Positions 298 to 28,895 of a stretch of 32,459 nucleotides of DNA are shown here, piece after piece; the first letter of the stretch is position 1; each line of letters begins with the position of its first letter. The translations under genes were made by a program, and so were the position numbers. This DNA comes from Vampirovibrionales bacterium. GTDB lineage: Bacteria; Cyanobacteriota; Vampirovibrionia; Vampirovibrionales; JAGQHJ01. The stretch covers positions 1-32,459 of the forward strand of contig JANWIO010000025.1 of the NCBI GenBank assembly GCA_025449835.1, written 5' to 3'. A model generated the notes under the pieces. It worked only from the letters and a program-made list of their open reading frames with translations, did no database searches and was not told the DNA's origin.

Positions 298-2565
298 CTA
301 TGCGCCTGCTGTTATACCCGCTGTACCTGTCACGTTGATGTTGCCGGAAACGGTCAACCCACCAGCAATGCCTGCACTACCGATTGTTAGGCTAGTAGCC
401 TTCACTCGGCCCAGTTCCGCTGAGGAGACATCCATCGTTCCACCACTGCCTGCATTGTCATTTTGATCTGTTGCACCGGCGACACTAATCGCTTTGGCTG
501 TAGTGGGTGTAATAGTCACTGTTCCTGCACCAGCATTAATGCTTCCAGTATTTGGAAGTGCAAATTCATCACCGGAAAATGTCATATTCCCACCATTACT
601 CGTAATTGCAGCAGCGATATTGATAACACCACTTCCATTAGCACTATTATCAGCATCCAAGATAATACTGAGCTTGCCTGAACCAGTGGTTGGCCCTGTG
701 ATGGCTGCGTTCACATTAATGTTTCGATAAGCCGACAGGGTCAATGTAGCGTTATTATTGGATGCGGTATTGAGTGTAATTGCACTGGAAACCGTAATAT
801 CCCCATTACTTGAACCGGGTGAACCATTTCCTCCCGTAGTAATATCAACATTTGTTCCAGCATTTAATGCGGTTTCAATGGTTGTATGTGAGATATTGGC
901 ATCTCCTGTGGGATTGCTACCTGTAATCGATCCATTCCCATCATCCGTCGTACCAATGGTTATGTTATAGGGGTCCATCAGCCAGGTTCCGGCAGTTCCT
1001 TTGGTGGCACTGGCATCTACCATACCGGTAACATTCAGGGTTTGCTTACCGGATGTTTCAACAAAGCCGCCATTACCACCATTTAGTCCACCCTTTGCCG
1101 AAATTGTGCCGCCAAAATCCGTTGTATTATCTGCCCAGACAACCACTTTCCCACCATCTCCATAGGTACCGGCATCCGCTTTCAGTGATACACCTGAATC
1201 AATGGTTGTCATGGTTGCGGTTCTGACATTATTGCCGCCGTGGGTATCTCCGCCAATCAAGGCGACCCCACCACCTTGATCACCTGACACATCGACCTGT
1301 GCTTGATCGAGCAGGCTGACCGTGTTCCCTAAAACTTCAATGGTTCCTCCTTTGCCACTGGTATCTCCTGTTGCCAGAAGATTACCCGTATTCACGACCG
1401 TATCGCCTTCCAAATGAACCAAACCACCATTGGGTGAAGCTTGGGTTCCACTGGCATCTATGGTCCCCGTGTTGGCAATGCTCCCTGTAATGCTGGTCAG
1501 CTCAATCACCCCATTGTGACTTTGGAATCCTTGAGCAGCAATTTCTCCGGTGTTATTCACCGCATGATCATAGAGCGCGTTGGCCAGCTCTGCCTCTGCA
1601 TGAATGGTTCCTCCTTGGGCATTTAATGTGCCAGAGTTTGAGATGGCATCATTGACTGCCGCTACTTTATTCTGTAGTGCCTGGTCAATGGTCACACTAA
1701 TCTGAAGGTTGTTATCCTCTGTCATTGTTACCTGATCGCCCACCGTGAGGTTAATCTGCCCCAATGGTGCCGTAATGGTCCCACTGTTGGAGATGGCACT
1801 ACCACTAAAGGCAATGAATCCCCCGGATTGGGCTTGAATGGTTCCCTCATTAATAATGGACGCCGGGGCGACATTGGGGTCTTTGCTAAAGGTCATCTTG
1901 CCATTGAGGAAGTCACTGTTTGAAATCCCTAAAGTGGTGGCAAAAAGAGAGCCCACATTCACCTGAGCAGACTGACCAAAGATAATGCCACTGGAATTAC
2001 TGAGAAAGACCTGTCCGTTAGAATGCATGGCCCCAAGAATTTGAGAAGGATTGCCCCCAACCACTCGGTTCAAGATCGCTGATTGAGAGCTGGGCAGATT
2101 AAAATTAACGGTTTCCCCCTGATTAATGTTAAAGCTTTGGTAATTGGCAATCGATCGCGTTGCCTGAGTGGTAACGTTTAAGGTGCTTCCCGTCTGGTTA
2201 AACTGAATATTCCCCGAAACCGATTGCATCCCCGTAGGTAACGCATAGGCTGAACCACTATTTAAGATAATAAACGCAAAAGCAGGCAATGCCAAAGACA
2301 GTGCCAGTCGAAAGGACTTTTTGGATTGAAAGAAATGACCCCGTTCCGGCGGGGGTAAATCCAAAGTCTCTAAAGATAGCACATTGGTAAGGTTTTGGGA
2401 CTCATAGCTGAGTAAGATACCCGGTCGAGATGATCCATCGGCAAATCCAAAGAGTTCTGCCAGAGACCGGAGTTCATGCTGGTAAAACACCTGAATGCGA
2501 TGCTGAAAGTAACCGATGAATCGGCCTTTGCAGAATCTGTCAATAACCAGGGTTTTCAGGAACAT
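298..2565 (-). CDS. Filamentous-haemagglutinin-like TPS secreted protein, ended by in-frame TAG
   Basis: This is a secreted adhesin-like protein of the two-partner secretion (TPS) class, expected to be exported by the Sec system and then by a TpsB/Omp85 pore (none is in the window). Numbered from the ATG at 2565, residues about 85-108 form a signal peptide ending in an A-x-A-like site. The haemagglutination-activity (TPS) domain follows at about 109-300, with the typical SNSSGIIFG and VNVGSLFATT segments. After it come Gly/Asn/Thr-rich beta-helix repeats, including GGFVETSGK and the family signature GTWLMDPYNITI. I chose 2565 because GGAG lies 7 bases upstream; a GTG at 2586 is also open but has no clear Shine-Dalgarno sequence. 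About 80 residues ahead of the signal peptide is unusually long. The frame ends at TAG (298-300), but the coding pattern continues beyond it, so this is a truncated or interrupted gene. Confidence 0.82.
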   Translation of the reverse strand: MFLKTLVIDRFCKGRFIGYFQHRIQVFYQHELRSLAELFGFADGSSRPGILLSYESQNLTNVLSLETLDLPPPERGHFFQSKKSFRLALSLALPAFAFIILNSGSAYALPTGMQSVSGNIQFNQTGSTLNVTTQATRSIANYQSFNINQGETVNFNLPSSQSAILNRVVGGNPSQILGAMHSNGQVFLSNSSGIIFGQSAQVNVGSLFATTLGISNSDFLNGKMTFSKDPNVAPASIINEGTIQAQSGGFIAFSGSAISNSGTITAPLGQINLTVGDQVTMTEDNNLQISVTIDQALQNKVAAVNDAISNSGTLNAQGGTIHAEAELANALYDHAVNNTGEIAAQGFQSHNGVIELTSITGSIANTGTIDASGTQASPNGGLVHLEGDTVVNTGNLLATGDTSGKGGTIEVLGNTVSLLDQAQVDVSGDQGGGVALIGGDTHGGNNVRTATMTTIDSGVSLKADAGTYGDGGKVVVWADNTTDFGGTISAKGGLNGGNGGFVETSGKQTLNVTGMVDASATKGTAGTWLMDPYNITIGTTDDGNGSITGSNPTGDANISHTTIETALNAGTNVDITTGGNGSPGSSNGDITVSSAITLNTASNNNATLTLSAYRNINVNAAITGPTTGSGKLSIILDADNSANGSGVINIAAAITSNGGNMTFSGDEFALPNTGSINAGAGTVTITPTTAKAISVAGATDQNDNAGSGGTMDVSSAELGRVKATSLTIGSAGIAGGLTVSGNINVTGTAGITAGA

Positions 2566-2952
2566 TAGGTGTCTCCAGAGCCACACATTTGGGTAATTAA
2601 CCTCAGAACATTCCAGGCCTCTTAGGTGAAATCCAGGTGATTCTGCCTGTTAAGGCTTTCATTGTCAGGCTTATCTCATCCTGGCAATTGAAAGTATTGA
2701 GTTGGTAAGTGTCTTACGGAAACTGGGTTTTAGGCCATAAGGCACTTTTAATCCATATCGGCAAAATCAATTAAGACTTAAGTGATGGTAAAAGTATCTT
2801 TAAATTTTCAATTTAAGGATGGACTAGTTCCCTTTATTTTGGAAAAAACGGATGAAATGATGTGAAAGCTTTTAAAATGCTGCAAGGGGTCTTTAAAATA
2901 CTTTTTTATGAACTATTATGAATGAACATGAATCTAATTTGGAGAAAACGCC
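2566..2952. other. Divergent intergenic region between haemagglutinin and GMK-like genes
   Basis: This gap of 387 bases separates two genes transcribed away from each other, so it should hold both promoters. I see a TATTAT box at 2914-2919, suitable as a -10 for the rightward gene but with no convincing -35. A small inverted repeat, GTAAG-TGT-CTTAC, lies at 2706-2718. The half near 2760-2920 is very AT-rich. No RNA gene or further ORF is supported. Confidence 0.5.
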
Positions 2953-14308: not shown

Positions 14309-15868
14309 ATGACCAATACCAGTAATTCTGACAATATATCATTTTCTAGTCGAGAATCCGTGGGGCTTTTAACGCCTGAGGCAGACACATCTTCAAGGGG
14401 TTTTCAACCAACGGTTGTCCAAAATTATATTGAAGGGCAATGGGTTTCTTCTTTGGGAACAGAATATGTGGACGTGATAAATCCAGCCACTGCCAAAGCG
14501 ATTGCAAAATGCCCACTTGGCACTCAACAAGATGTGAATACTGCGGTTAAAGCTGCTCAAAAAGCATTTCAAACCTGGCGACAAGTTCCGGCCATTGATA
14601 GAGTTCAAATTCTGTTTCGTTTAAAAGCACTGATGGAAGAAAACGCTGAGGAACTGGCTCGCCTGTGTACATTGGAACATGGAAAAACCCTGGTTGAATC
14701 CAGAGGAGATGTCCGTCGGGCAATTCAAATGGTTGAGATGGCGTGTGGCATGCCCTCCATTATGATGGGACAAGGCTCTGAAGATATTGCTGCTGGTATT
14801 GATTGCTATGCCATTAAACGGCCAATGGGCGTTTTTGCGGCCATTACACCGTTTAATTTCCCGGCAATGGTTCCATTTTGGTTTTGGCCTTTTGCTGTAG
14901 CCTCGGGAAATACCTTTGTTTTAAAACCCAGCGAACGGGTTCCTTTAACCCAGGTTCGTATTTTTGAGCTGATTGAAAAAGCGGGGATGCCTGCTGGGGT
15001 CATCAATATGGTCCATGGGAGTAAAGAGGTTGTGAATGCCCTTTGCACACACCCAGATATTCAAGGTGTCTCGTTTGTGGGCTCCACACCTGTTGCCAAA
15101 CACGTATATCAAACTGCAACGGCCACTGGAAAAAGGGTTCAAGCCTTAGGCGGCGCTAAAAACTTTATGGTTGTTTTGCCCGATGCACCCCAAGACTCCT
15201 CAGTGAAAACAGTCTTAGAATCTGTCATCGGTTGTGCGGGTGAGAGATGCTTGGCAGGTTCTGTTATTGTTGGCGTTGATGATGCTTACCCATGGCTTGA
15301 AGCTGGAATTGTAAGTGCTGCTAAGGCCGTTAACATTGGAGATGGGCTAGAACCCCAAGTGAATATGGGGCCATTAATTTCTCAACAGGCAAAAGAACGG
15401 GTGCTGGAACTCATTCAATCTGCCATTGACGAAGGCGCCAAAATCTTGGTGGATGGGCGAGAAGGGGTTGAGCATCTCGATGGCTTTTTCTTAAAGCCCA
15501 CTGTGTTGGCTGGAGTTACGCCTAATATGCGGATTGCCAAAGAGGAGGTTTTTGGACCTGTTGTTTGTTTGGCGCAAACCAAAACACTGGATGAGGCCAT
15601 TGCCTGGTTAAACAGTTCAGAGTATGGCAATACAACATCATTGTTTACCGCATCCGGTGCTGCTGCCCGAAAATTTATGTACGAGGCAGATCCCAGTATG
15701 ATTGGGGTTAACATTGGTGTGCCGGCACCGATGGCATTCTTCTCTTTTGGCGGCTGTAAAAACTCCTTTTTTGGTGACGTTAAAGCCCATGGCAAAGTCT
15801 CTGTTGACTTTTATACCGATACCAAAGTAACTGTGCAACGCTGGTTTAAAAATTCCAGTATTTGGTAA
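14309..15868 (+). CDS. mmsA: CoA-acylating (methyl)malonate-semialdehyde dehydrogenase
   Basis: An ALDH-superfamily enzyme of 519 residues of the MmsA/IolA branch. It oxidises malonate semialdehyde to acetyl-CoA, or methylmalonate semialdehyde to propionyl-CoA, with NAD+ and CoA and loss of CO2. Seen: TLEHGKTLVESRGDV (121-135), oxyanion Asn183 in ITPFNFPAM, the branch-specific GGAKNF (281-286) in place of the usual general-base Glu region, and nucleophile Cys314 in GCAGERCLAG. The first 35 residues are an extra tail before the fold. GGGGAGG ends 8 bases before ATG 14309. As first gene of the pyrimidine operon it fits as the last pathway step, consuming the semialdehyde made from beta-alanine or beta-aminoisobutyrate. 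A role in valine or inositol breakdown is possible in isolation, but nothing nearby supports it. Confidence 0.92.
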   Translation: MTNTSNSDNISFSSRESVGLLTPEADTSSRGFQPTVVQNYIEGQWVSSLGTEYVDVINPATAKAIAKCPLGTQQDVNTAVKAAQKAFQTWRQVPAIDRVQILFRLKALMEENAEELARLCTLEHGKTLVESRGDVRRAIQMVEMACGMPSIMMGQGSEDIAAGIDCYAIKRPMGVFAAITPFNFPAMVPFWFWPFAVASGNTFVLKPSERVPLTQVRIFELIEKAGMPAGVINMVHGSKEVVNALCTHPDIQGVSFVGSTPVAKHVYQTATATGKRVQALGGAKNFMVVLPDAPQDSSVKTVLESVIGCAGERCLAGSVIVGVDDAYPWLEAGIVSAAKAVNIGDGLEPQVNMGPLISQQAKERVLELIQSAIDEGAKILVDGREGVEHLDGFFLKPTVLAGVTPNMRIAKEEVFGPVVCLAQTKTLDEAIAWLNSSEYGNTTSLFTASGAAARKFMYEADPSMIGVNIGVPAPMAFFSFGGCKNSFFGDVKAHGKVSVDFYTDTKVTVQRWFKNSSIW

Positions 15869-15912
15869 GCCTCAACAACACGTTATTCGTTATGAAATGA
15901 GGATTTTGACAC

Positions 15913-17331
15913 ATGCATCGCGTTTTAATTCAACATGGAACCATTGTCACCGCAACCGATAAATTCGAAGCGGATGTTTATATTGAAGATGAACAGGTTC
16001 AAGCCATTGGCAAGAACTTGTCTTATGACGCAGATGAAGTGATTGATGCCAAGGGTTGTTACCTCTTTCCGGGAGGTATTGATCCCCATACCCATATGGA
16101 CCTCCCTTTTATGGGAACTTTTTCAAGTGATGATTTTGAAACCGGAACCTTGGCGGGGCTCCATGGCGGTACCACCACCATTATTGATTTTGCCATCCAA
16201 ACCCAGGGCAAGTCATTACAATCTGCTTTAGATGAATGGCATCAAAAGGCAGATGGGAAAGCTGTTGGTGACTATGCTTTCCATATGGGGGTTACCGATT
16301 TTAACGATAATACCCGTCAAGAAATTAAAGACGTTGTTGAAAAACACGGTGTTACTTCCTTTAAAACCTTTATGGCATATAAAGGCGCCTTTATGATTGA
16401 TGATCGTCAGATGTTGGGGTTGATGGATGAAGCTGGGAAATACGGTGGCATTGTGACCGCCCATGCTGAAAATGGCGATATGATTGATGAACTAACAGCA
16501 AAGCATAAAGCCCAAGGGAATTTGGCACCGAAATATCATGCTTTGTCTCACCCGGAGATAGCGGAAGCGGAAGCGTCTGGACGGTTTATTGATTTGGCTT
16601 ATAAAGGGAATCATCCTTGTTATATTGTGCATATGACGTGTGAGGGAGCGCTCAACCGGGTTCGAGAAGCCACCAAGCGAAATCAGACCGTGCATGTGGA
16701 AACCTGTATCCAATATTTATTGCTCGATGATTCTTTGTATGACAAACCCGGATTTGAAGGCTCCAAGTGGGTGTTTAGTCCCCCGCTTCGAAAACCCAAA
16801 GATCAGGAAGCCTTGTGGAGTGGGATTGACCAGAATTTAGTGCACACTGTTGGAACGGATCATTGTCCTTTCTGTATGGACCAAAAACGGATGGGTGAAA
16901 ATGACTTTTCGAAGATTCCCAACGGCGCACCAGGTGTTGAACATCGGATGGAGTTGTTATATTCGGAAGGGGTTGAAAAAGGCCGGATCTCCCTCAACAA
17001 GTTTGTGGAACTCACTGCGACAGCACCAGCCAAAATATTCGGCATGTTTCCCAAAAAAGGGACTATTGCCGTGGGGTCTGATGCAGATATCGTCATTTTT
17101 GATCCGAAGAAAGAGCATACGATTTCGGCAAAGACTCATCACCATCGCTGTGATTATTCCGCTTACGAAGGGTGGCAGGTTAAAGGCAAGGTACGTTCCG
17201 TGTTTTTAAGAGGTCATCTGGTAATTGATGACGGGAAGGCCTTGGTTGAAAAAGGATTTGGTCAATATATTGCACGCAAGCCATACCATCAGGAATTATC
17301 GGAATCTCCTAAACAGCTTGTCAATATCTAA
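15913..17331 (+). CDS. hydA: Dihydropyrimidinase
   Basis: A 472-residue cyclic amidohydrolase that opens dihydrouracil or dihydrothymine to the N-carbamoyl-beta-amino acid, normally a tetramer with two metal ions in the cytosol. The full metal set is visible: H59 and H61 (PHTHMDLPF), the carbamylated Lys151 in SFKTFMAYKG, H184 in TAHAENGD, H240 in YIVHMTC and D316 in GTDHCPF. Length and motif order match bacterial dihydropyrimidinase/hydantoinase. It is second in the operon, 44 bases after mmsA, directly before the enzyme for its product. The symbol hydA is used loosely for this family; context favours pyrimidines over other hydantoins. Confidence 0.93.
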   Translation: MHRVLIQHGTIVTATDKFEADVYIEDEQVQAIGKNLSYDADEVIDAKGCYLFPGGIDPHTHMDLPFMGTFSSDDFETGTLAGLHGGTTTIIDFAIQTQGKSLQSALDEWHQKADGKAVGDYAFHMGVTDFNDNTRQEIKDVVEKHGVTSFKTFMAYKGAFMIDDRQMLGLMDEAGKYGGIVTAHAENGDMIDELTAKHKAQGNLAPKYHALSHPEIAEAEASGRFIDLAYKGNHPCYIVHMTCEGALNRVREATKRNQTVHVETCIQYLLLDDSLYDKPGFEGSKWVFSPPLRKPKDQEALWSGIDQNLVHTVGTDHCPFCMDQKRMGENDFSKIPNGAPGVEHRMELLYSEGVEKGRISLNKFVELTATAPAKIFGMFPKKGTIAVGSDADIVIFDPKKEHTISAKTHHHRCDYSAYEGWQVKGKVRSVFLRGHLVIDDGKALVEKGFGQYIARKPYHQELSESPKQLVNI

Positions 17332-17346
17332 ACTCAGGAGGCGAAC

Positions 17347-18213
17347 ATGTCAAAGACAGTTAAAGCAGCAGTGATTCAAATGGCAAACAAGTTGCCGACA
17401 GAGGCTTCATGCGAAGAACATCGCAAGGCCATGCTTGAAGCCCATATTCCTTATATTGAGGAAGCCGGGCGTCAAGGGGTTCAAATGTTGTGTTTTCAAG
17501 AAATTTATACCGGCCCTTACTTTTGCCCTTCTCAAGATACCAAATGGTATGGTCTGGCAGAAGCCATCCCTGATGGTCACACAACCCGGTTGATGCAAGA
17601 GTATGCCAAAAAATATAACATGGTGATTGTAGTTCCCATTTATGAAGAAGAAATGACCGGCGTTTATTACAATACCGCTGCGGTGATCGATTCGGATGGG
17701 ACGTATCTGGGCAAATATCGGAAAAATCATATTCCTCAAGTGAAAGGTTTTTGGGAAAAATTCTTCTTTAAACCCGGAAATTTAGGGTATCCCGTTTTTA
17801 AAACCCAATATGGCAACGTCGGCGTATACATCTGTTATGACCGCCATTTCCCTGATGGGGCTAGATGTCTGGGCCTCAATGGCGCTGAAATTGTCTTTAA
17901 CCCGTCAGCAACTGTTGCAGGATTATCCCAATATCTCTGGGAAATTGAGCAGCCGGCCCATGCGGTTGCCAACGGTTACTTTTTAGCTGCCATCAACCGG
18001 GTTGGGTCAGAAGCACCCTGGAACATTGGTGAGTTCTATGGGTCTTCTTATTTCGTAAACCCACGGGGCAAAATTATTGCCCAAGCATCAAAAGACAAGG
18101 ACGAACTGCTGGTAGCGGATCTGGATTTTGATGAAATCCGAGAAGTTCGTGACTTGTGGCAATTTTACAGAGACAGACGCCCAGAAACTTACAAAGAATT
18201 AGTTGCGCTTTAA
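17347..18213 (+). CDS. Beta-ureidopropionase (nitrilase superfamily)
   Basis: A 288-residue C-N hydrolase of the nitrilase superfamily. The catalytic triad is E52 (CFQEIYTGPYF), K126 (YRKNHIPQVKGFWEKFFF) and C163 (GVYICYDRHFPDGAR). The segments around Lys and Cys are those of N-carbamoyl-beta-alanine amidohydrolase, which releases beta-alanine, ammonia and CO2. It has strong Shine-Dalgarno CAGGAGG and follows dihydropyrimidinase by 15 bases. N-carbamoylputrescine amidase is the closest alternative by sequence, but polyamine genes are absent nearby and the operon supplies the pyrimidine substrate. Confidence 0.92.
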   Translation: MSKTVKAAVIQMANKLPTEASCEEHRKAMLEAHIPYIEEAGRQGVQMLCFQEIYTGPYFCPSQDTKWYGLAEAIPDGHTTRLMQEYAKKYNMVIVVPIYEEEMTGVYYNTAAVIDSDGTYLGKYRKNHIPQVKGFWEKFFFKPGNLGYPVFKTQYGNVGVYICYDRHFPDGARCLGLNGAEIVFNPSATVAGLSQYLWEIEQPAHAVANGYFLAAINRVGSEAPWNIGEFYGSSYFVNPRGKIIAQASKDKDELLVADLDFDEIREVRDLWQFYRDRRPETYKELVAL

Positions 18214-18241
18214 GGCGTAACAGTATTGAAGGAGGCTCAAG

Positions 18242-19591
18242 ATGGTTAGTCAACATGAAGATTCTGTAGCGGTTTTACAACGAGAATATCCATCAAATTC
18301 GGAGATTCTGGAGACTCGAAAAAAACACTTTATCTCAACAGCGTACCCCTACTATAAAGAACCCCTTCAATTGGTTCGGGCGAGTGGTTGTTATGTTTTT
18401 GATGAAAAGGGAAACCGTTACCTGGATGTCATTGGTGGGATTGTTTGTATTTCGGCAGGGCATAACCACCCTAAAATCAAGCAAGCCTTGATTGACATGA
18501 TTCAAAGTGATGAAATTCAGCATACTAGTTTGCTGTATCTTAATCAGCATGCGACTAACCTTGCCCAAAAATTGGTTTCTGAAGCGCCTCAAGGGATTGA
18601 TAAGTGTGCTTTTACCAATTCAGGCTCAGAGGCCAATGAGCTCGCCTTTATGACAGCCCGTCATGCAACGGGTGAGAACATGGTGGTAAATCTTCGACAT
18701 TCATACCATGGCGGGACATCTGGTGCGTTGGCCAGTTGTGGACATCACTCCTGGCGATTCCGTTCACAACCGGTTGCTTCAGTAACTTCTGCATTAGAAC
18801 CTAACTGTTATCGATGCCCATTTAATCAAAAACCCGATAGCTGCCATCTGGAATGTGCCCAAAATGTAGAAACCACCATTCAAACATCAACCCATGGAAA
18901 GATTGCAGCCTTTATTGCAGAACCCGTTATGGGGGTGGGTGGTTTTATCACGCCTCCCAAAGAATATTTCACCGAAGTGGCCAAAATTGTTCATAATTAT
19001 GGCGGGAAATACATTAGTGATGAAGTGCAAACAGGGGCGGGCCGTTGCGGTGGTAATTTCTTGCTGACAAAAGAGCTTGGGATTGATGCCGATATGATTA
19101 CCATGGCAAAAGGTTTTGGAAATGGTGCAGCCATTGGCGGTGTCCTCATGAAGTCAGACATTTCAGATGCTTTGGCAGGAAAATTTTACTTTAATACATT
19201 TGCGGGTGACCCGTATCAAGCGATGCAGGCGCTCAAAACCATGGAAATCATTGAAGAAGAGCATCTGGTGGAAAACGCTCGGCAAATGGGCCAATACCTC
19301 AAAGACGGGCTGTTGGATCTGATGAAACGTCATACTTTAATTGGCGATGTAAGAGGTCGAGGACTGTTGATGGGCGTCGAACTGGTGAAAGATAGAGCTA
19401 CTAAAGCCTATGCCACTGAAGAATGTTCGCGATTAATGGAGCTTTGTAAAGAGCGCAATGTTCTGTTGGGGAAAGGTGGCTTGTTTGGGAACGTTCTGCG
19501 GATTGCGCCTCCCCTCTCCATTAACCGAGAGCAGATTGACACCTTGCTCAAAGTCTTAGACGAATCTTTCGCCGTACTGAGTCGTTCTTAA
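18242..19591 (+). CDS. Class III aminotransferase (beta-alanine type)
   Basis: A fold-type I, PLP-dependent aminotransferase of 449 residues. Seen: TNSGSEANELA (125-135) for the phosphate of PLP, SYHGGTSGA (154-162), D260 in SDEVQTGAGR, and the Schiff-base Lys290 in ITMAKGFGNGAAIGG. It is close to the AGXT2/beta-alanine-pyruvate group. In this operon it should convert beta-alanine (or beta-aminoisobutyrate) to the semialdehyde used by MmsA, with pyruvate or 2-oxoglutarate as acceptor; the acceptor cannot be read. A Cys-rich insert CYRCPF...CHLEC (189-205) is typical of this subgroup. AAGGAGG precedes ATG 18242 with good spacing. Confidence 0.9.
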   Translation: MVSQHEDSVAVLQREYPSNSEILETRKKHFISTAYPYYKEPLQLVRASGCYVFDEKGNRYLDVIGGIVCISAGHNHPKIKQALIDMIQSDEIQHTSLLYLNQHATNLAQKLVSEAPQGIDKCAFTNSGSEANELAFMTARHATGENMVVNLRHSYHGGTSGALASCGHHSWRFRSQPVASVTSALEPNCYRCPFNQKPDSCHLECAQNVETTIQTSTHGKIAAFIAEPVMGVGGFITPPKEYFTEVAKIVHNYGGKYISDEVQTGAGRCGGNFLLTKELGIDADMITMAKGFGNGAAIGGVLMKSDISDALAGKFYFNTFAGDPYQAMQALKTMEIIEEEHLVENARQMGQYLKDGLLDLMKRHTLIGDVRGRGLLMGVELVKDRATKAYATEECSRLMELCKERNVLLGKGGLFGNVLRIAPPLSINREQIDTLLKVLDESFAVLSRS

Positions 19592-19620
19592 CATCATTAA
19601 CGTATTTAAGGAGACCGCTA

Positions 19621-21144
19621 TTGGAAGCCACAACAGTAACGTTGGACTTAACCTTGCCCTCTGAAAATGGATCAAGCCTAATCAACCATGACTTGGCGCC
19701 AGTCTCGCACGAGGGGCGAACCTGGACAACCGTGAATTATCTTGCGCTTTGGGTCGGGATGTCTGTTTGCATTCCCACATACATGATTGCAGCATCCTTA
19801 ATTCAGGGTGGTATGAACGTTACTGAAGCGGTCTTAACCGTTTTCCTGGGCAATCTTATTGTTCTCATTCCCATGATTCTGAATGGCCATGTGGGGGCCA
19901 AGTATGGTATCCCCTTTCCCATATTTTCCAGAGCCAGTTTTGGGGTCAAAGGATCCAATATCCCTGCCATGCTTCGAGCCGTGGTGGCTTGCGGTTGGTT
20001 TGGAATTCAATGTTGGATTGGGGGTTCTACTCTATATACCATTCTCAAAGTGTTTAATCCTGCCATTGATACCTTTCCCAGAGTTTTGCCTGCTTTCTTA
20101 GGAGTCAGCCTGGTTCCCTTTCTCTGTTTTTTGGTGTTTTGGTCCATCAACGTTTTCCTGCTCTGGAAAGGGATTGAATCCATCAAGCGTTTGGAAACCT
20201 TCTGTGCCCCCTTTTTAATCTTGTGTGGTTTGGCCTTGCTCTATTGGGCCTATGTTCATGCCCATGGGTTTGGCACCATGTTGGCAACGCCCTCCAAATT
20301 TAAAACCAATGGTGAATTTTTCAAATTCTTTTTTCCAGCACTAACGGGAATGGTTGGTTATTGGGCAACCCTGAGCTTAAACATTCCTGATTTTACGCGG
20401 TATGCCAAGGATCAAAAATCACAGATGATTGGTCAGGCATTGGGTTTACCAACGACCATGACCTTATTTGCTTTTATTGGTGTGGCTGTTACCAGTGCTA
20501 CTGTGGTGATTTATGGTAACAGCATTTGGGACCCCATTGTGCTGATTGGGAAATTCCAAAACCCAGTATTGATTGTTTTTGCCATGCTGGCCATTTGTTT
20601 GGCAACACTTACGATGAATGTTGCTGCCAATGTGGTGGCACCCGCAAATGACTTTGCCAATCTGGCCCCTGCCAAAATTGATTTTAAAAAAGGTGGCTAT
20701 ATTGCTGCTGTAATTGGGATTTTGATGATGCCATGGAAGTTGCTAGCCGATCCAACAGGGTATATTTTTACGTGGCTAGTGGGGTATTCTGCCCTTTTAG
20801 GGCCTGTTGCTGGCATTTTGCTGACAGATTATTTCCTCTTACGTAAATGTAAGCTGGATGTTAATGATCTATACCAAGAGTCCGGTGTGTATTCATACCA
20901 GAATGGGGTGAATGTTGCAGCCGTGATTGCACTTTTATTAGGTGTTCTGCCCAATGTTCCTGGCTTTTTGGTTCAAATCAAAGCGATGGATTCTACAGCG
21001 ATGCCAGACTTTATTGTTGGCTTATACCACTATGCGTGGTTTTTAGGCTTATTCATTGCGGGGATTACGTATTTTCTACTGATGCGAAATCGAATTCAAA
21101 ATGGTGTTTTACAGGATAATCATGTTCTGGGGGGTGCTTCATGA
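19621..21144 (+). CDS. NCS1 nucleobase:cation symporter
   Basis: An inner-membrane permease of 507 residues with about 12 helices, of the NCS1 family (Mhp1, PucI, uracil and allantoin permeases). Family segments seen: WTTVNYLALWVGMSV, YGIPFPIFSRASFGVKGSNIPA with the helix-3 aromatic site, ACGWFGIQCWIGG, and the mid-protein FFPALTGMVGYWATLSLNIPDF. Such carriers import a nucleobase or related hydantoin with Na+ or H+. Given its neighbours, uracil or thymine is the likely cargo. The start is TTG 19621 with AAGGAG 7 bases upstream; there is no ATG nearby. Its stop overlaps the start of preT in ATGA. Confidence 0.92.
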   Translation: MEATTVTLDLTLPSENGSSLINHDLAPVSHEGRTWTTVNYLALWVGMSVCIPTYMIAASLIQGGMNVTEAVLTVFLGNLIVLIPMILNGHVGAKYGIPFPIFSRASFGVKGSNIPAMLRAVVACGWFGIQCWIGGSTLYTILKVFNPAIDTFPRVLPAFLGVSLVPFLCFLVFWSINVFLLWKGIESIKRLETFCAPFLILCGLALLYWAYVHAHGFGTMLATPSKFKTNGEFFKFFFPALTGMVGYWATLSLNIPDFTRYAKDQKSQMIGQALGLPTTMTLFAFIGVAVTSATVVIYGNSIWDPIVLIGKFQNPVLIVFAMLAICLATLTMNVAANVVAPANDFANLAPAKIDFKKGGYIAAVIGILMMPWKLLADPTGYIFTWLVGYSALLGPVAGILLTDYFLLRKCKLDVNDLYQESGVYSYQNGVNVAAVIALLLGVLPNVPGFLVQIKAMDSTAMPDFIVGLYHYAWFLGLFIAGITYFLLMRNRIQNGVLQDNHVLGGAS

Positions 21145-22541
21145 TAGAAATTTCAATAAAAGAAACCACTCGTCTTCTACCAATTCCTGAAGAGGCGACG
21201 TTGACAAAAAGCTTTTCCAATATTAAACCTGCATTATCCGCAGGAGAAGCAATGATTGAAGCTTCTCGATGTCTTTTTTGCCATGATGCGCCGTGTACTC
21301 AAGCGTGTCCTTCATCCATTGATATTCCCATGTTTATTCGACAAATTATGTCTCAAAACCCCAAAGGGGCGGCGAAAACAATTTTTACTCAGAATATTCT
21401 AGGCAAGTCTTGTGCATCGGTTTGCCCAACCCAAGTGTTGTGTGAGGGGGCCTGCGTATACAACGATATGAACGAAAAACCCATTGATATTGGGCGTTTA
21501 CAAGGCTTTGCCACCGATTATGCCATCGAGAACAATATTCGGTTCTTTCAAAAAGGTCAGCCGACTCGTAAAAAGGTTGCAGTCATTGGTGGCGGTCCAG
21601 CAGGCTTGGCCTGTGCTCACGAGCTTACGGTATTGGGTTATGAGGTGGTGGTTTATGAGGCCCACGAAAAAGCAGGCGGCTTAAACGCCTATGGTGTCGC
21701 TCCCTATAAATTCACCAATGCCGATGCCGCAGAAGAAGTGGATTATGTGTCTCAGATTGGGTTTACTATTAAAACCAAAACCCGGGTTGTTGCCCAGACT
21801 GAAGAAACAACATCAAGTTCTGACTACCATACTGTTTTGCTCAACGATTTGGAAAAAGACTATGATGCTATCTTTCTAGGGATGGGCTTGGGTGAATCTA
21901 AAAAGCTGGGGATTCCAGGGGAAAATTTACCTGAAGTTCAGGGTGCCGCTGAATTTATTTATCAGTTGCGAAAAGAAGAACAAAAAATTTCGGTGGGTCG
22001 GCGAGTTGTTGTGATTGGTGCCGGAAATACTGCCATTGATGCAGCAGTAGAAAGTGCAAAGTTAGGAGCAGATGTTCAGGTTCTGTATCATCGCACGGCC
22101 CAAGATCAAAGTGCCTATGACTTTGAAGTGGCGCATGCCAAAGCGGCCAATGTCAAATTTTGTTATTTGGTGACCCCTTCGGAAATTATTGGGAGTCAGC
22201 ATGTTGAGGGGGTTCGGTGCCTTCAAAATGAGGTAACCGGTGTGGATGATCGGGGAAAATCGAAAATTAATCCTATCCTCGGCTCTGAGTTTGTTTTACC
22301 GTGTGATATGGTGATTTATGCAACGGGGCAAGAGAAACAGGTCCGTTTCTATCATTCAATTTCTGGTTTAACGCTGGAACACGGAAAAATTTTGGTGAAC
22401 CCAAACTATCAAACCACCCATCCCAAATACTTTGCTGGGGGCGATTGCGTGAATGGCGGCAAAGAAGTGGTGAATGCCGTGGCGCATGGACGGGATGCTG
22501 CACGAGGTATCCATCGTTATTTGTTGGGTGAGAAAAATTAG
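21141..22541 (+). CDS. preT: Dihydropyrimidine dehydrogenase subunit PreT
   Basis: A 466-residue flavoprotein, the NAD(P)H-oxidising half of bacterial dihydropyrimidine dehydrogenase, related to the small subunit of glutamate synthase. The N-terminal Fe-S domain has C44, C47, C52, C56 and a second set C91, C95, C101, C105. The FAD Rossmann motif is VIGGGPAGLACAHEL (148-162) and the NAD(P)H site VVVIGAGNTAIDAAV (289-303). It passes electrons to PreA, which reduces uracil or thymine. The 4-base ATGA overlap with the permease indicates translational coupling, and PreA follows after 16 bases. The pairing with PreA rules out a simple glutamate-synthase assignment. Confidence 0.93.
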   Translation: MIEISIKETTRLLPIPEEATLTKSFSNIKPALSAGEAMIEASRCLFCHDAPCTQACPSSIDIPMFIRQIMSQNPKGAAKTIFTQNILGKSCASVCPTQVLCEGACVYNDMNEKPIDIGRLQGFATDYAIENNIRFFQKGQPTRKKVAVIGGGPAGLACAHELTVLGYEVVVYEAHEKAGGLNAYGVAPYKFTNADAAEEVDYVSQIGFTIKTKTRVVAQTEETTSSSDYHTVLLNDLEKDYDAIFLGMGLGESKKLGIPGENLPEVQGAAEFIYQLRKEEQKISVGRRVVVIGAGNTAIDAAVESAKLGADVQVLYHRTAQDQSAYDFEVAHAKAANVKFCYLVTPSEIIGSQHVEGVRCLQNEVTGVDDRGKSKINPILGSEFVLPCDMVIYATGQEKQVRFYHSISGLTLEHGKILVNPNYQTTHPKYFAGGDCVNGGKEVVNAVAHGRDAARGIHRYLLGEKN

Positions 22542-22557
22542 GAAGGAGGCGAAGACA

Positions 22558-23817
22558 ATGGCGGATTTAAAAATTAATTTTGCAGGCATTATAGCACCTA
22601 ATCCCTTTTGGTTGGCTTCTGCTCCTCCCACCAACACAGGCTACCAAGTAATGAGAGCCTTTGAAGCAGGGTGGGGTGGCGCTGTTTGGAAAACATTGGG
22701 GCAGCCTATTGTGAATGTTTCCAGTCGTTATGGGGCTTTAAACTACAAAAACGACAGGATGATGGGGCTGAACAATATCGAATTGATCACCGATCGCCCA
22801 CTGGAAGTGAATATTCGGGAAATGAAAGAAGTTAAGGAACGATTTCCGAATCATGCCCTGATTGCCTCCATGATGTTTGAAACCAAAGAAGAGTGGCATG
22901 ACTGCATTAAACGTTGTGAAGACGTGGGTGTTGATGGTTTTGAACTTAATTTTGGCTGTCCTCACGGGATGTGTGAGCGTGGTATGGGGTCGGCAGTCGG
23001 TCAAAACCCAGACGTGTGTGAAAAAATTACGAGTTGGGTTATGGAAGCTGCCACAAAGCCGGTGATTGTTAAGTTAACGCCAAACATCACTGATATTACA
23101 AAGGCTGGCTTAGCGGCCCAGCGAGGGGGGGCTAATGCGGTTTCTTTAATTAACACCATTAATTCTGTAACCCGAGTGGATTTAGAAACTTTTGAGCCCA
23201 TGCCTTCAGTGAATGGGTATTCAACCCATGGGGGCTATTGTGGGCCAGCGGTTAAACCCATTGCACTCAATATGGTTTCTGCTCTGGCGGCTCATCCCGA
23301 TTTTCATCTGCCTATTTCGGGTATTGGGGGTATTGAAACCTGGCGGGATTCCGCTGAATTTATCCTGATGGGGGCCTCTTCTGTTCAGGTTTGTACTGCC
23401 GTGATGCACTACGGTTTTCGGATTGTGACGGACATGATTACAGGGATGTCTGATTATCTTGATTCCAAAAATATGAAAGCTATTGAAGACCTTGTCGGTC
23501 ATACGGCGCATCGTGTAAAACGCTGGGAGGAACTGGATTTAAATTATAAGGTAGTCGCTCATATTGATCCTGGAACGTGCATCGGTTGCCAACTCTGTTA
23601 TATTGCCTGTGAAGATGGGGCGCATCAATCCATTGCGCTGCAAGAAGGAACCCGTGTTCCTGCCATTAAAGAAGAGTCTTGTGTCGGATGTAATCTTTGC
23701 AGTTTGGTTTGCCCAGTTGATGATTGTATTTCCATGGTCAAAGTAAATACGGGAAAAGAGAAGTTGGTTTGGGCGGAACACCCGGCTAATCCGCATCAAA
23801 TAGCCGCCATTCATTAA
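22558..23817 (+). CDS. preA: Dihydropyrimidine dehydrogenase subunit PreA
   Basis: The catalytic FMN subunit (419 residues) that reduces uracil/thymine to the 5,6-dihydro form. The FMN barrel carries SAPPTNTGYQ (21-30), the catalytic loop NFGCPHGMCERGMGSAVGQ with active-site C134, KLTPNITDI (172-180), and ISGIGGIETWRDSAEF (253-268). The C-terminal ferredoxin domain has two 4Fe-4S motifs: C341, C344, C347, C351 and C375, C378, C381, C385. The ATG 22558 is set by GGAAGGAGG, 8 bases upstream; the frame is open back to 22474, but that part overlaps preT. It is the last gene of the operon. Direction (reduction) follows from the downstream catabolic genes; the enzyme class is reversible in principle. 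Confidence 0.94.
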   Translation: MADLKINFAGIIAPNPFWLASAPPTNTGYQVMRAFEAGWGGAVWKTLGQPIVNVSSRYGALNYKNDRMMGLNNIELITDRPLEVNIREMKEVKERFPNHALIASMMFETKEEWHDCIKRCEDVGVDGFELNFGCPHGMCERGMGSAVGQNPDVCEKITSWVMEAATKPVIVKLTPNITDITKAGLAAQRGGANAVSLINTINSVTRVDLETFEPMPSVNGYSTHGGYCGPAVKPIALNMVSALAAHPDFHLPISGIGGIETWRDSAEFILMGASSVQVCTAVMHYGFRIVTDMITGMSDYLDSKNMKAIEDLVGHTAHRVKRWEELDLNYKVVAHIDPGTCIGCQLCYIACEDGAHQSIALQEGTRVPAIKEESCVGCNLCSLVCPVDDCISMVKVNTGKEKLVWAEHPANPHQIAAIH

Positions 23818-23885: not shown

Positions 23886-26039
23886 ATGGTGGGATTTGTG
23901 TCGACCATTACAACACTTTTGACGCAAGCCGATGAGGCATTTCAGGCTGGTCATTTTACGCAAGCGGAAACATATTCCAGAGAGATTATTGGGCTAAATC
24001 CCACGGTGGCCTATGCTCACCGCATATTTGGCATGAGCTTAAAACAACAAGGCCAGGAACAGGAAGCCATTAATGCTTTCAAAAATGCATTGGCTTTGGA
24101 TCCCCTAGATTTGGAAGCGTGCTTTCAATTGGCACATTCCTTTCAACAATTATCCCAATGGCCGAAAGCACTTCAGTTTTATCAACATGCCCTATCCATT
24201 AAGCCGGATTCTCATGAAATTTATAACAACCTGGGATTTGTCCTTCAGCAAATGGGACAGATGGAAGAGGCTTTGGCTGCTTTTCAACAGGCACTAAAAT
24301 ATCTTCCCAATAATCCCATCATACTGGTTAACATTGGAGGGATTTATGAAAGTTTGGGGCAAAATGAGATTGCCGAAAAAACTTATGAAAGTGCGGTCAA
24401 TGCTGATCCGACTTTTTTAACGGCGCTGAATAAATTGGGTATTTTACAAACAAGACTTGGAAAATGGCAGGCTGCTTTGACCCAATTTCAAAAAGCCCTT
24501 GGCATGGAACCCAATGATCCCATTACCCAAAACAACCTTGGTGCGCTCTACATGGAGCAGTATCGCTTTAGCGAGGCTATGGCATGTTTTGAAAAAGCAT
24601 TAGAGCTTGAACCCGCGTTTTTTAATGCGTTGTCAAATCTGGCTTATGTTTATCAAACCCAAGGGTTCATTCAAGAAGCGATGGTGCTCTACCAAAAAGC
24701 CTATGAAATAAACCCCAGAGATGGCATTCGTCTGAAAATGGCAACGCTTTTGCCACCGATTTATCAATCTGTTGAAGAAATCCAGCAGTGGCGCAGTCAT
24801 TTAGTGGAGACGGTTGAATCTCTTCAGGGTTGCTCTCTCGATATTTCAGATTCAATTGGTTCACCCCCGTTTTTCCTGGCTTATCAGGGGTTGGATGACA
24901 GAGACATCATGCAAAAAACTTCATCGTTGTGCCAAAACATCAAAGCGTGGCCAAGTGTTCCGTTGGCAAAAAATCCAAAACCAAGGATTGGATTCATTTC
25001 TCGTTGTTTTTGGAAAAGCCACACCATTGGCCGAGTCTTTTTGGGTTTAATCGAACATCTGAATCGTGAATGTTTTGATCCTGTTGTGATTTCAATTGGG
25101 CCGGTTGAACTACCGCTTATGCAAACCCCATATGAACATTTGAATCTTCATCCCCAGGACTTTGAGCATGGCTGGCAAAAAATAGCCGATCTCAAACTGG
25201 ACGTTTTAATTTATACCGACATTGGGATGGATCCCATGACGTATTTTCTGGGATTCTGTCGCTTGGCTCGGGTTCAATGTGTGACGTGGGGGCATCCTGT
25301 CACCACGGGGATGGAAACAATAGACCATTATCTTTCCAGCCGGTTGTTTGAAACACCCGAAGCACCCGCACATTATACTGAAAACTTGGTGCTATTAGAC
25401 ACGATTCCCGCGTATTACAAAAAGCCTGTTATCGAGCATGAAATCAATGTAAAAGAAAAGTTGGGTTTGCCTCCCGATAAACACCTGTATTTGTGCTTGC
25501 AATCCCTTTTTAAGTTTCATCCGGATTTTGATCACCTGATTGGTGAAATCCTGCGACGAGATCCCGATGGAATTCTTTTAATGGCCAATGCCCTTTACTC
25601 CCATTGGACTGACTTATTGCTAGAGCGTTTTCAAGAAACAATTCCCGATGTTTTGGGACAAATAAGGATTTTAGAAAGATTGGATTTTAATACCTATCTC
25701 AACTTAGTGGCCGTTGGTGATGTAGCCCTTGATCCAATCCATTTTGGGGGAGGAAGTACCACTTATGAAGCCCTTGCCTTTGGGACACCTGTAGTTACAA
25801 AACCTTCAGCATTTTTAAAAGGTCGGATGACCTATGGCTGTTATCAGAAAATGGGTGTTGATGACTGTGTGGCCTCAAATGATGAAGATTACATCAATAT
25901 TGCTGTTCGGTTGGCCACTAATCCGAAGTATCGTCAATGTATTCAGAACAAAATATTGGATTCCCATCATGTCCTCTACGAAGACAAAGCAGCCGTGGAG
26001 GCACTCGAAACCTTTTTGTGGGAAGTCTTGAAAGACTAA
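23886..26039 (+). CDS. TPR protein with OGT-like (GT41) glycosyltransferase domain
   Basis: A 717-residue cytosolic protein. Residues about 6-280 are roughly eight TPR units of 34 residues (for example 109-142 and 177-210). A linker leads to a GT-B domain from about 366 resembling the eukaryotic O-GlcNAc transferase (GT41) C-terminus. Signs are PRIGFISRCFWKSHTIGR, WGHPVTTGMETIDHYL (like GYPGTSG of OGT), LFKFHPDF with K543 at the position of OGT Lys842, and HFGGGSTTYEALAFGTPVV for the nucleotide sugar. It probably glycosylates a protein (flagellin or surface protein), the TPRs binding the acceptor. This is inferred from family. The nonulosonate genes 5 kb away fit a surface-sugar theme, but donor and target are unknown. 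It follows preA by 68 bases and could be a distal read-through gene, though its job looks unrelated. Confidence 0.85.
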   Translation: MVGFVSTITTLLTQADEAFQAGHFTQAETYSREIIGLNPTVAYAHRIFGMSLKQQGQEQEAINAFKNALALDPLDLEACFQLAHSFQQLSQWPKALQFYQHALSIKPDSHEIYNNLGFVLQQMGQMEEALAAFQQALKYLPNNPIILVNIGGIYESLGQNEIAEKTYESAVNADPTFLTALNKLGILQTRLGKWQAALTQFQKALGMEPNDPITQNNLGALYMEQYRFSEAMACFEKALELEPAFFNALSNLAYVYQTQGFIQEAMVLYQKAYEINPRDGIRLKMATLLPPIYQSVEEIQQWRSHLVETVESLQGCSLDISDSIGSPPFFLAYQGLDDRDIMQKTSSLCQNIKAWPSVPLAKNPKPRIGFISRCFWKSHTIGRVFLGLIEHLNRECFDPVVISIGPVELPLMQTPYEHLNLHPQDFEHGWQKIADLKLDVLIYTDIGMDPMTYFLGFCRLARVQCVTWGHPVTTGMETIDHYLSSRLFETPEAPAHYTENLVLLDTIPAYYKKPVIEHEINVKEKLGLPPDKHLYLCLQSLFKFHPDFDHLIGEILRRDPDGILLMANALYSHWTDLLLERFQETIPDVLGQIRILERLDFNTYLNLVAVGDVALDPIHFGGGSTTYEALAFGTPVVTKPSAFLKGRMTYGCYQKMGVDDCVASNDEDYINIAVRLATNPKYRQCIQNKILDSHHVLYEDKAAVEALETFLWEVLKD

Positions 26040-26419: not shown

Positions 26420-27274
26420 TTATGCAATCCGTAATGTCAAACACTTTGCAGAGCCACCAGATTTAAGGTATTCACTGAGATCAAGCTGAATCACTTGAAA
26501 CCCTTTTTCTTCCAGAACGCCCGCAAGACGATGGGAGCCTTGATTGAAGATAACCGTGTTGTTGATGTTAACGGTATTGCATGCAAAGCGGCTGGCTTCT
26601 TCAGCGGTCACCGGAATCCGTTTTTCCACTGGAATGTTGGCTTCAATAACCCGCTTTCCGTATTCATCAAACGCCTCTGGATAATACAGGAAATAATCGT
26701 TATAAAGGGGGCAAATACACACATCAATATGATAAAACCGGGAGTCGATTAACTCCATGGAAAGCACCGGCAAGCCGGTTTCTTTGGTGATAATGTGGTG
26801 AGAGAGAATATCTGTACGGGTTTTGTATCCTGCGAAAACACGATCTTTCCAAATTAAGGCATCGCCTGCACCTTCAAAAAACAAGTCTTCCGGCATGGTC
26901 ACGGTTCGATAGCCGTTTTCATTGAACCATTTTTCACAAAAAGGTTCTTCCGGCTGCCGTTCGGGATATTTGTAGTGAGCAATAATGGCGGTGTCTTTGT
27001 ACACAAAAGCAGCATTAGCCGTAAAAACCAAATCGGGTAATCCATCTACCGGCGGCATTAAATGAACCTGAGCGCCGGCCTTTTGGGTAATGGCGTGATA
27101 AAGGTTTTCCCATTGTTTTTTGGCTAAATCAACATCAACAGCCCCTTGGGTCATCCAGGGATTGATGGCGTACGCCACGGTGAAGTAATCCGGTGGGCTC
27201 ATCAGGATGTGGGGCTTGCTTTTGTCTTGTAGTAGACTTTTCATCACACAACTATCGGGCAACGGGTTGGGCAT
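26420..27274 (-). CDS. Arginine dihydrolase (ArgZ/AgrE N-terminal type)
   Basis: A 284-residue guanidine-group-modifying enzyme matching the N-terminal catalytic domain of cyanobacterial ArgZ/AgrE, which turns arginine into ornithine, CO2 and two NH3. Numbered from ATG 27274: MSPPDYFTVAYAINPWM near the start, D81 and N87 (PDLVFTANAA), E134 (FFEGAGDA), H182 (RFYHIDVCICPL) and nucleophile C278 in GGSAKCLTL at the very end. Asn in TAN is the residue tied to the dihydrolase rather than deiminase reaction in ArgZ (from memory of the family). Unlike cyanobacterial proteins it stops after this domain. AGGAG lies 9 bases before ATG 27274 (3 before ATG 27280). The first 20 bases overlap the end of the LOR-domain gene, implying coupled translation. 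Dimethylargininase is the main alternative. Confidence 0.8.
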   Translation of the reverse strand: MPNPLPDSCVMKSLLQDKSKPHILMSPPDYFTVAYAINPWMTQGAVDVDLAKKQWENLYHAITQKAGAQVHLMPPVDGLPDLVFTANAAFVYKDTAIIAHYKYPERQPEEPFCEKWFNENGYRTVTMPEDLFFEGAGDALIWKDRVFAGYKTRTDILSHHIITKETGLPVLSMELIDSRFYHIDVCICPLYNDYFLYYPEAFDEYGKRVIEANIPVEKRIPVTAEEASRFACNTVNINNTVIFNQGSHRLAGVLEEKGFQVIQLDLSEYLKSGGSAKCLTLRIA

Positions 27275-27776
27275 GAACATTTTCTCCTAAGGTGGGTAAT
27301 ATTTTAATTCCGTTATCCCCCACCACAACCAAATTGCCTTGTTTCACCTCTTTTGTTTTTTGTAAATGAGCTGATTTGGTTTTGGGATCAAGCACAATTA
27401 CCAAGTCAATACCTTGACGTTCAACGGGGAGCCATTGGTCTTGATATAGAATTTCGGTAGGTGGGTTTAAACGGATATAAGCATTCTCTGGAACAACACC
27501 ATCTTTCGGGCATGGTTCGAGATCAACGGCATGATCCATCAGTGTTTTAACACCGTAGGGTTTTAATTCCTCCAATAAGGTTGTTAATAGTGGTTGATCT
27601 TCTGTCCACACTGAAATTTGTGCTGTTGAGATATCATTTTTTTTCTGACCAATTTGAAGATCGTTGATTTGATACTCACACCCAGCCGCTTGAATCTTAT
27701 CTATCACTTTGGCCAGTGTAAGCGAATCAATGATATGGCCGGACAATTCAATAATCGTAAAATTTGAAGATGGCAT
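27252..27776 (-). CDS. LOR/SDH-type conserved-domain protein (stand-alone)
   Basis: A 174-residue protein resembling the LOR/SDH bifunctional-enzyme conserved domain that sits in the middle of cyanobacterial AgrE and at the front of archaeal ornithine cyclodeaminase. Seen: IELSGHIIDSLTLAKVIDKI (9-28), the YQINDLQIGQ and STAQISV segments, then DGVVPENAY and VVVGDNGIKILP near the end. The NAD-binding cyclodeaminase half that normally follows is missing. The gene overlaps the arginine dihydrolase start, so the two products are probably made together and may form one complex. Role is inferred: assembly, or regulation by an amino acid. ATG 27776 has GGAG 10 bases upstream. Confidence 0.7.
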   Translation of the reverse strand: MPSSNFTIIELSGHIIDSLTLAKVIDKIQAAGCEYQINDLQIGQKKNDISTAQISVWTEDQPLLTTLLEELKPYGVKTLMDHAVDLEPCPKDGVVPENAYIRLNPPTEILYQDQWLPVERQGIDLVIVLDPKTKSAHLQKTKEVKQGNLVVVGDNGIKILPTLGENVHAQPVAR

Positions 27777-28229: not shown

Positions 28230-28895
28230 ATGTCCTCTACATCAGCCAATACACCTGAACAACCCCAAAAACGTACAGTTTACGATTATGTTGAACTGAT
28301 TGAAACTGTTGCGCGTGTTGAATATAGCCGTTTACCGAATCATTTAATTGATTACAGTGAACTGGTGAATATTGGTGCTATTGCAGTTCATGTGCTCCTT
28401 ACCCAGAATCCTGATACAGAATACAATATTACCTATTTATCCACTGCCATTAAATGGGCGGTCCGAAATGAGTTACGATATCGGTATAAGTGGTATTCCT
28501 TAAAACAGACCAGTACCGATGAGTCTGACGATGACGCTCAATCCGATGATGATTCGGGTGCAGAAGTCTCCAAAGATCATGTGCGGGAAGCCGTATACGA
28601 AACAATTCTTTCCTCAGATGCTATGCAGGCAGCAGATAACCCGATGGAGCTTAGAGATGATTCTCAAGGTCCCGAAGAAAATGCAGAACTCACTGAAATG
28701 GCCATTGTTGTTCGAGAATCCATTGCCAAGTTGCCCCAACGAGAACGTCAAATTTTAGAGGCTCGATTTTATAAGAATATGAAAATGCGTGAAATTGGTG
28801 AAATCTATAATATTTCACCGTCTCGTATTTCCCGTATTCTGCAATCTGGGCTCAACAAGGTGAAGCGAGACCTTCAACGAAGAGGCTATGCTTAA
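28230..28895 (+). CDS. Alternative RNA polymerase sigma factor (sigma70 family)
   Basis: A 221-residue group 3-like sigma factor. Region 2 (about 20-90) shows VEYSRLPNHLIDYSELVNIGAI and the helix TYLSTAIKWAVRNELRYRYKWY, which resembles the FliA/WhiG layout. Region 4 (about 155-215) ends with LPQRERQILEARFYKNMKMREIG and the helix-turn-helix ISPSRISRILQSGLNKVKRDL. Between them is a very acidic linker (DESDDDAQSDDDSG, 97-110) and no recognisable region 3. It should direct core polymerase to a special promoter set; flagellar or developmental roles are possible by resemblance only. No anti-sigma gene is evident. The Shine-Dalgarno sequence is poor (GAAAG). It converges on the hypothetical membrane protein with a 4-base gap. 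Confidence 0.85.
   Translation: MSSTSANTPEQPQKRTVYDYVELIETVARVEYSRLPNHLIDYSELVNIGAIAVHVLLTQNPDTEYNITYLSTAIKWAVRNELRYRYKWYSLKQTSTDESDDDAQSDDDSGAEVSKDHVREAVYETILSSDAMQAADNPMELRDDSQGPEENAELTEMAIVVRESIAKLPQRERQILEARFYKNMKMREIGEIYNISPSRISRILQSGLNKVKRDLQRRGYA

Follow-up and report, generated by a model that had tools for sequence, protein, structure and literature searches.

The window, that is, the whole stretch of 32,459 nucleotides analysed here, carries two overlapping genes on its reverse strand. The first of them (27252..27776) encodes a protein of 174 residues with matches to PF04455, PF21571 and TIGR00300, referred to below as LOR, and the second (26420..27274) encodes an arginine dihydrolase (ADH) of 284 residues from the ATG at 27274, or of 286 residues from the ATG at 27280. 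The second ATG (27274) is favoured as the ADH start, because an AGGAG ribosome-binding site located within the LOR coding region (27284..27288, reverse strand) sits 9 nt upstream of it; use of the first ATG would leave a 3-nt spacer to AGGAG and an overlap of 29 bases. With the favoured start, the end of the LOR gene and the beginning of the ADH gene share 23 bases (27252..27274, reverse strand). The original prediction of a separate LOR gene, placed first and overlapping the ADH gene by 23 bases, unlike the order in the cyanobacterial enzyme AgrE, was thus correct provided that ATG 27274 is the start.

The LOR protein was expected to match the LOR/SDH (Saccharop_dh_N) profile, and it did so with an E-value of 1e-24 and 87.3 bits for PF04455, which exceeds the Pfam gathering score of 23.5. 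The profile match and an AlphaFold model placed this domain, which is predicted to be ACT-like, at residues 8-100 (27477..27755, reverse strand), and the solved LOR domains that matched the protein were 3mgj and 6lrf. The ornithine cyclodeaminase (OCD) profile TIGR00300, named nickel-pincer-nucleotide-dependent OCD in NCBIfam, was matched at 5e-37 over positions 5-159 of 407, but the 127.8 bits fall short of its full-length cut-off of 410.8 bits. According to the profile alignment, the LOR gene corresponds to the first 160 residues of an OCD of the archaeal type (MJ1480), whereas the remaining residues (about 245, with the catalytic part) are absent. The segment that follows the LOR domain in ArgZ, the first region of the ArgZ-like C-terminal part (PF21571), is specific to OCD and ArgZ; its start is kept in the window protein (3.5e-14, profile positions 1-57 of 84) and in the other long LORs. 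The retained part covers residues 106-162 (27291..27461, reverse strand) and was modelled by AlphaFold as strands with a block pLDDT of about 73-93. A GHIIDS motif at residues 13-18 (27723..27740, reverse strand) lies in the loop joining the first strand and the first helix; its G, H, I16, D and S are invariant among the long LORs. The GHxxD part is preserved in nearly all LORs compared, the following S being Ala in several AgrEs.

The ADH of the window aligned with positions 4-266 of 266 of the NCBIfam profile Arg_dihydro (NF052232; 6e-93, 310.9 bits), which is below the curated cut-off of 450 bits, a value that none of the 382 surveyed genomes of the class Vampirovibrionia reached. It also matched the ADH domain of the AgrE/ArgZ profile NF052231 (3.2e-93, positions 6-269); the cut-off of 1025 bits was not reached there, the match being divided between two genes, LOR first, with 313 bits for ADH and 78 bits for LOR. 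The best solved match was Anabaena AgrE (4e-77), and AgrE and ArgZ were the closest proteins. All the active-site residues compared are kept: in AgrE numbering, Asn22, Asp65, Asn71, Arg90, Glu118, Asp122, His168, Asp170 and Cys264. The equivalent of Asn71 (27014..27016) is invariant in 17 aligned ADHs, and the alignment to AgrE located Glu118 at 26873..26875, the catalytic His168 at 26729..26731 and the catalytic Cys264, the residue replaced in the C264A mutant of AgrE (PDB 6lrh), at 26441..26443, all on the reverse strand. Judging from its sequence, the enzyme should convert arginine into ornithine, two NH3 and CO2.

A search for relatives with the LOR protein alone found none, the protein being too divergent for the search patterns. 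The survey of the 382 Vampirovibrionia genomes revealed an OCD-less LOR in 29 of them, 27 of which also had an ADH, and in 26 of these 27 LOR either immediately preceded ADH as a gene of its own or formed the N-terminal part of a fused chain; in the remaining one (G190) both genes are present at contig ends. The suggested search for the same pair in relatives therefore returned more than two dozen genomes, and since the pair recurs in so many of them, it is not a product of chance (Fisher test of LOR/ADH co-occurrence in the 382 genomes, 2e-24, ignoring relatedness). Within the taxonomic order of the window, LOR was present in 13 of 18 genomes, in each of them directly before ADH: as a pair of the window type in eight (LOR of 159-182 residues), as a single LOR-ADH chain of 361-438 residues in four (a LOR of about 75 residues, a linker and ADH; one comes from 'Vampirovibrionales bacterium OFTM381'), and as a 75-residue LOR before ADH in one. 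The family member G001 lies on a contig of the MAG HKST-UBA04. Thirteen more genomes outside the order, the named ones belonging to Candidatus Gastranaerophilales, had ADH adjoined by a LOR of 73-96 residues or by a tandem-LOR gene of 156 residues. In two proteins with tandem-duplicated LORs that adjoin ADH (L040, 1034-1504; L043, 1001-1471), the GHxxDS motif of the first copy is altered. Outside the class, two Eremiobacterota genomes had a LOR of 160 residues with ADH, and OCD was not found in either. The two partners also occur apart: G247 and G252 have a lone 75-residue LOR with no ADH match detected, G011 and G358 have an ADH of the LOR-paired clade with no LOR beside it, and in G004 and G006 a more distant ADH occurs without LOR. 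Such stand-alone LOR genes for 75 residues were seen at L156 (7220-7447) and L157 (6957-7184), in two genomes of family f11 with no ADH detected.

The NAD-binding OCD part had been described as absent, and our searches agree with this. The window LOR was the only PF04455 match and the only TIGR00300 match of its genome (2.9 Mb, 92% complete), so that the rest of OCD was not found there, and the other LOR+ADH genomes that we tested gave the same picture. Downstream of its stop codon the LOR frame contains many stops, and no OCD remnant was found in it. Among 15 other LOR+ADH or LOR-bearing genomes, TIGR00300 matched only the LOR part, except in one genome of family f4 with a broken OCD. Seven further genomes of the class have an OCD, all of them in family f4 and one of them broken. 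A family f4 OCD gene lying in two reading frames, which match TIGR00300 positions 4-212 and 211-403, was noticed at L188 (G082:C179:22111-23308). A full-length LOR-OCD of 404-489 residues is encoded directly upstream of ADH at nine loci (Nitrospirota, Planctomycetota, Chloroflexota and UBA2219). In cyanobacteria, a single chain of about 703 residues has the order ADH-LOR-OCD; in a phylum survey of 386 genomes, all 116 clear matches outside Vampirovibrionia lay in AgrE-sized frames of 679-751 residues, and one more match was a weak fragment.

The pair shares with AgrE and ArgZ (Alr4995, Sll1336) the ADH family with the compared active-site residues, the LOR domain and the start of the next region. 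AgrE, however, joins ADH, LOR and OCD in one chain, whereas in the window LOR is a separate gene before ADH and OCD is missing. The LOR-OCD + ADH operons of Nitrospirota, Planctomycetota and Chloroflexota are alike in gene order, tight spacing and protein families, and differ in that their upstream gene encodes a full-length OCD. In the ADH tree (62 rows, 275 columns), the enzymes of Vampirovibrionales and Eremiobacterota formed one clade (96/89), those of the small-LOR types a second (99/96, G358 included), while a third (100/98) consisted of ADHs from other phyla, both operonic and stand-alone. All three joined at 91/91 with AgrE outside, the joining branch not being starred, which makes the operon type the nearest branch. 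The groups in the LOR tree (72 columns) matched those of the ADH tree, with a weak backbone. The original prediction of a split and reordered AgrE was accurate as to the arrangement, but an origin by splitting AgrE is unlikely, because the ADH tree joins these enzymes to the operon type, apart from AgrE, and the gene order is that of the operons as well. Since LOR-OCD precedes ADH elsewhere, the window pair can be read as the OCD + ADH operon order minus the catalytic half of OCD. As the LOR protein keeps OCD residues 1-160, the simplest reading of the sequences is that its gene is the OCD gene of such an operon after loss of the catalytic half; this direction of evolution is what we infer.

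The LOR gene is under purifying selection: dN/dS was 0.02-0.14 in eight close pairs from four genera, each pair with more than 10 synonymous changes, and 0.01-0.09 for ADH in the same pairs where ADH was present. LOR evolves faster than ADH (54% and 76% identity, respectively, between G000 and G003). The AlphaFold model of the window LOR (pLDDT 79) had as its top fold matches the LOR domains of AgrE, ArgZ and MJ1480 (among them 3mgj), and in Foldseek the best matches outside its own family included an ACT domain (3ibw) and the NIL domains of MetN (2qsw, 2qrr); a comparison with viral models gave no significant match. ACT and NIL domains are ligand-sensing domains. The matches to isolated ACT/NIL domains were weak in E-value (2e-3 to 1e-2), with a TM score (target) of 0.52-0.58, and LOR has no sequence-family match to them; the similarity to the RelA ACT domain and the C-terminal domain of MetN lies in the predicted beta-alpha-beta-beta-alpha core. 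The predicted fold makes a sensing role plausible, and LOR is probably an amino-acid-sensing subunit of ADH. An AlphaFold model of the natural LOR-ADH fusion L015 (four sequences) reached a pLDDT of 60, at which no usable interface could be made out. The conserved adjacency, the gene overlap and the four fusions point to a shared LOR-ADH complex.

For the fate of ornithine we scored the ornithine aminotransferase RocD by the TIGR01885 cut-off, with 20 hand-picked LOR-less genomes of the class as controls. Every one of the 13 LOR+ADH genomes from the order had RocD above the cut-off, the window genome (C160) among them, as did nine of the 14 others, in total 22 of 27, and none of the 20 controls did. 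In the five pairs without RocD above the cut-off, ornithine must go elsewhere. The window genome also encodes an ornithine carbamoyltransferase. Ornithine aminotransferase and glutamine synthetase are recurring neighbours of the pair in relatives: in G212 the gene that follows ADH is RocD, in G010 RocD adjoins LOR in divergent orientation, in G220 it is close by, and in G174 ADH is followed by a glutamine synthetase gene. A Gastranaerophilales MAG (L066, 2264-6183) has, in this order, a divergent RocD-like gene, LOR, ADH and a gene for a protein resembling the G174 glutamine synthetase. It is likely from these gene contents that RocD takes over from OCD, and that arginine would be converted through ornithine to glutamate semialdehyde, with the ammonia captured by glutamine synthetase.

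Taken as a whole, we find it fairly probable that the catalytic ADH and a non-catalytic LOR subunit form one functional unit, in which LOR is a remnant of OCD and RocD replaces OCD. An OCD gene would once have stood directly upstream of ADH and lost its catalytic half, and the LOR half would have been retained because ADH needs it. As the overlapping genes and the fusions in relatives suggest, LOR most likely binds ADH and either assembles the enzyme or tunes it to an amino acid, for instance arginine or ornithine. The module would no longer turn ornithine into proline; ornithine would pass to glutamate semialdehyde via RocD in most carriers, or back into arginine synthesis. The expectation that LOR is a dedicated partner of ADH fits the conserved adjacency and the four natural fusions. 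Against the subunit model, the LORs of G247 and G252, with no ADH detected, may have another role, the ADHs of G011 and G358 indicate that ADH does not strictly depend on LOR, the sequence of LOR changes faster than that of ADH, and the ACT/NIL matches are weak. More tentatively, and with rather less than an even chance, LOR could be an exchangeable amino-acid-sensing subunit, retained and refined after the loss of OCD, that gates nitrogen release from arginine in these non-photosynthetic relatives of cyanobacteria.

The lone LOR genes and the ADHs without LOR could also mean that LOR serves mainly another target, for example by binding amino acids as a free regulator or by partnering RocD or a different nitrogen enzyme, and that it adjoins ADH only through a common arginine/ornithine operon. 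LOR is indeed also part of the full OCDs of family f4 and of archaea, and RocD and GlnA are neighbours too; however, these are near only sometimes, whereas ADH is the constant and immediate partner in 26 genomes and is fused to LOR in four, and we regard this explanation as unlikely. There is a small chance that the stand-alone LOR and ADH are ancestral, as the original prediction had proposed for a two-subunit state, and that OCD and AgrE arose later by addition of a catalytic domain. Over much of the class, small LOR and ADH are encoded separately, and the OCD-less LORs are weakly set apart in the LOR tree (56/79). Loss of the catalytic half of OCD is nevertheless the more likely course: what the LOR gene encodes is a truncated OCD, the long LORs bear the start of the OCD/ArgZ-specific PF21571, full LOR-OCD occurs in archaea and several bacterial phyla, and the order LOR-OCD then ADH matches the window, minus the catalytic half.

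A real pair with a different enzyme, an arginine deiminase or a dimethylargininase-type hydrolase, would be in line with the 311 bits against the Arg_dihydro cut-off of 450 and with a score of 251 of 300 for the mycobacterial dimethylargininase model. This is improbable, given that the AgrE active-site residues compared are all conserved, Asn71 included, that AgrE is the best solved match, and that ornithine- and ammonia-handling neighbours are found in several relatives. As a truncated OCD that evolves faster than ADH, the LOR gene could be taken for a functionless, decaying leftover, which has hardly any chance of being correct: it is contradicted by the dN/dS values in close pairs of four genera, on which a pseudogene status was rejected, by the open frame in 29 genomes and the kept GHxxD motif, and by the reduction of LOR to a clean 75-residue domain, its tandem duplication and its fusion to ADH in separate lineages.

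To our knowledge, the LOR domain is known solely from ornithine cyclodeaminases and AgrE, and we know of no explanation of its role in AgrE or in archaeal cyclodeaminases. A search of the open-access literature found no paper on a LOR+ADH module or on the nickel-pincer-dependent OCD, and a conserved ADH variant, two-gene or fused, in which LOR is separated from OCD and kept with ADH, is apparently undescribed there. The pair corresponds to the fused enzyme of cyanobacteria put together in the opposite order, and amounts to a natural domain-deletion experiment, in which OCD is gone and LOR remains with ADH. Because its usual partner has been lost and the pairing or fusion with ADH kept, this suggests that the LOR domain works for ADH. 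Small proteins and natural fusions thereby allow the purpose of LOR to be tested directly, and a route from arginine through ornithine to glutamate semialdehyde is suggested in gut and environmental Vampirovibrionia.

The link to a pyrimidine operon that had been proposed for the released nitrogen was not borne out, as such an operon was absent from all the neighbourhoods of relatives that we read, where RocD and glutamine synthetase recur instead. In the window, a reductive pyrimidine-degradation cluster occupies 14309-23817 on the forward strand, with genes for an aldehyde dehydrogenase, a dihydropyrimidinase, a class III aminotransferase, an NCS1 transporter, a GltD-like subunit and PreA, together with a carbamoyl-hydrolase resembling N-carbamoylputrescine amidase (below cut-off); it was not seen next to the pair in the relatives whose neighbourhoods we read. 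A gene for a sigma-70 region 4 protein lies near the pair, divergent from LOR, in the window (28230-28895, forward strand) and in G003 (L158, 5611-6300, reverse strand). The window also encodes a TPR protein whose glycosyltransferase domain belongs to family 41 (O-GlcNAc transferase-like; 23886-26039, forward strand) and an exoprotein with a TPS domain (two-partner secretion, haemagglutinin-like; 298-2586, reverse strand).
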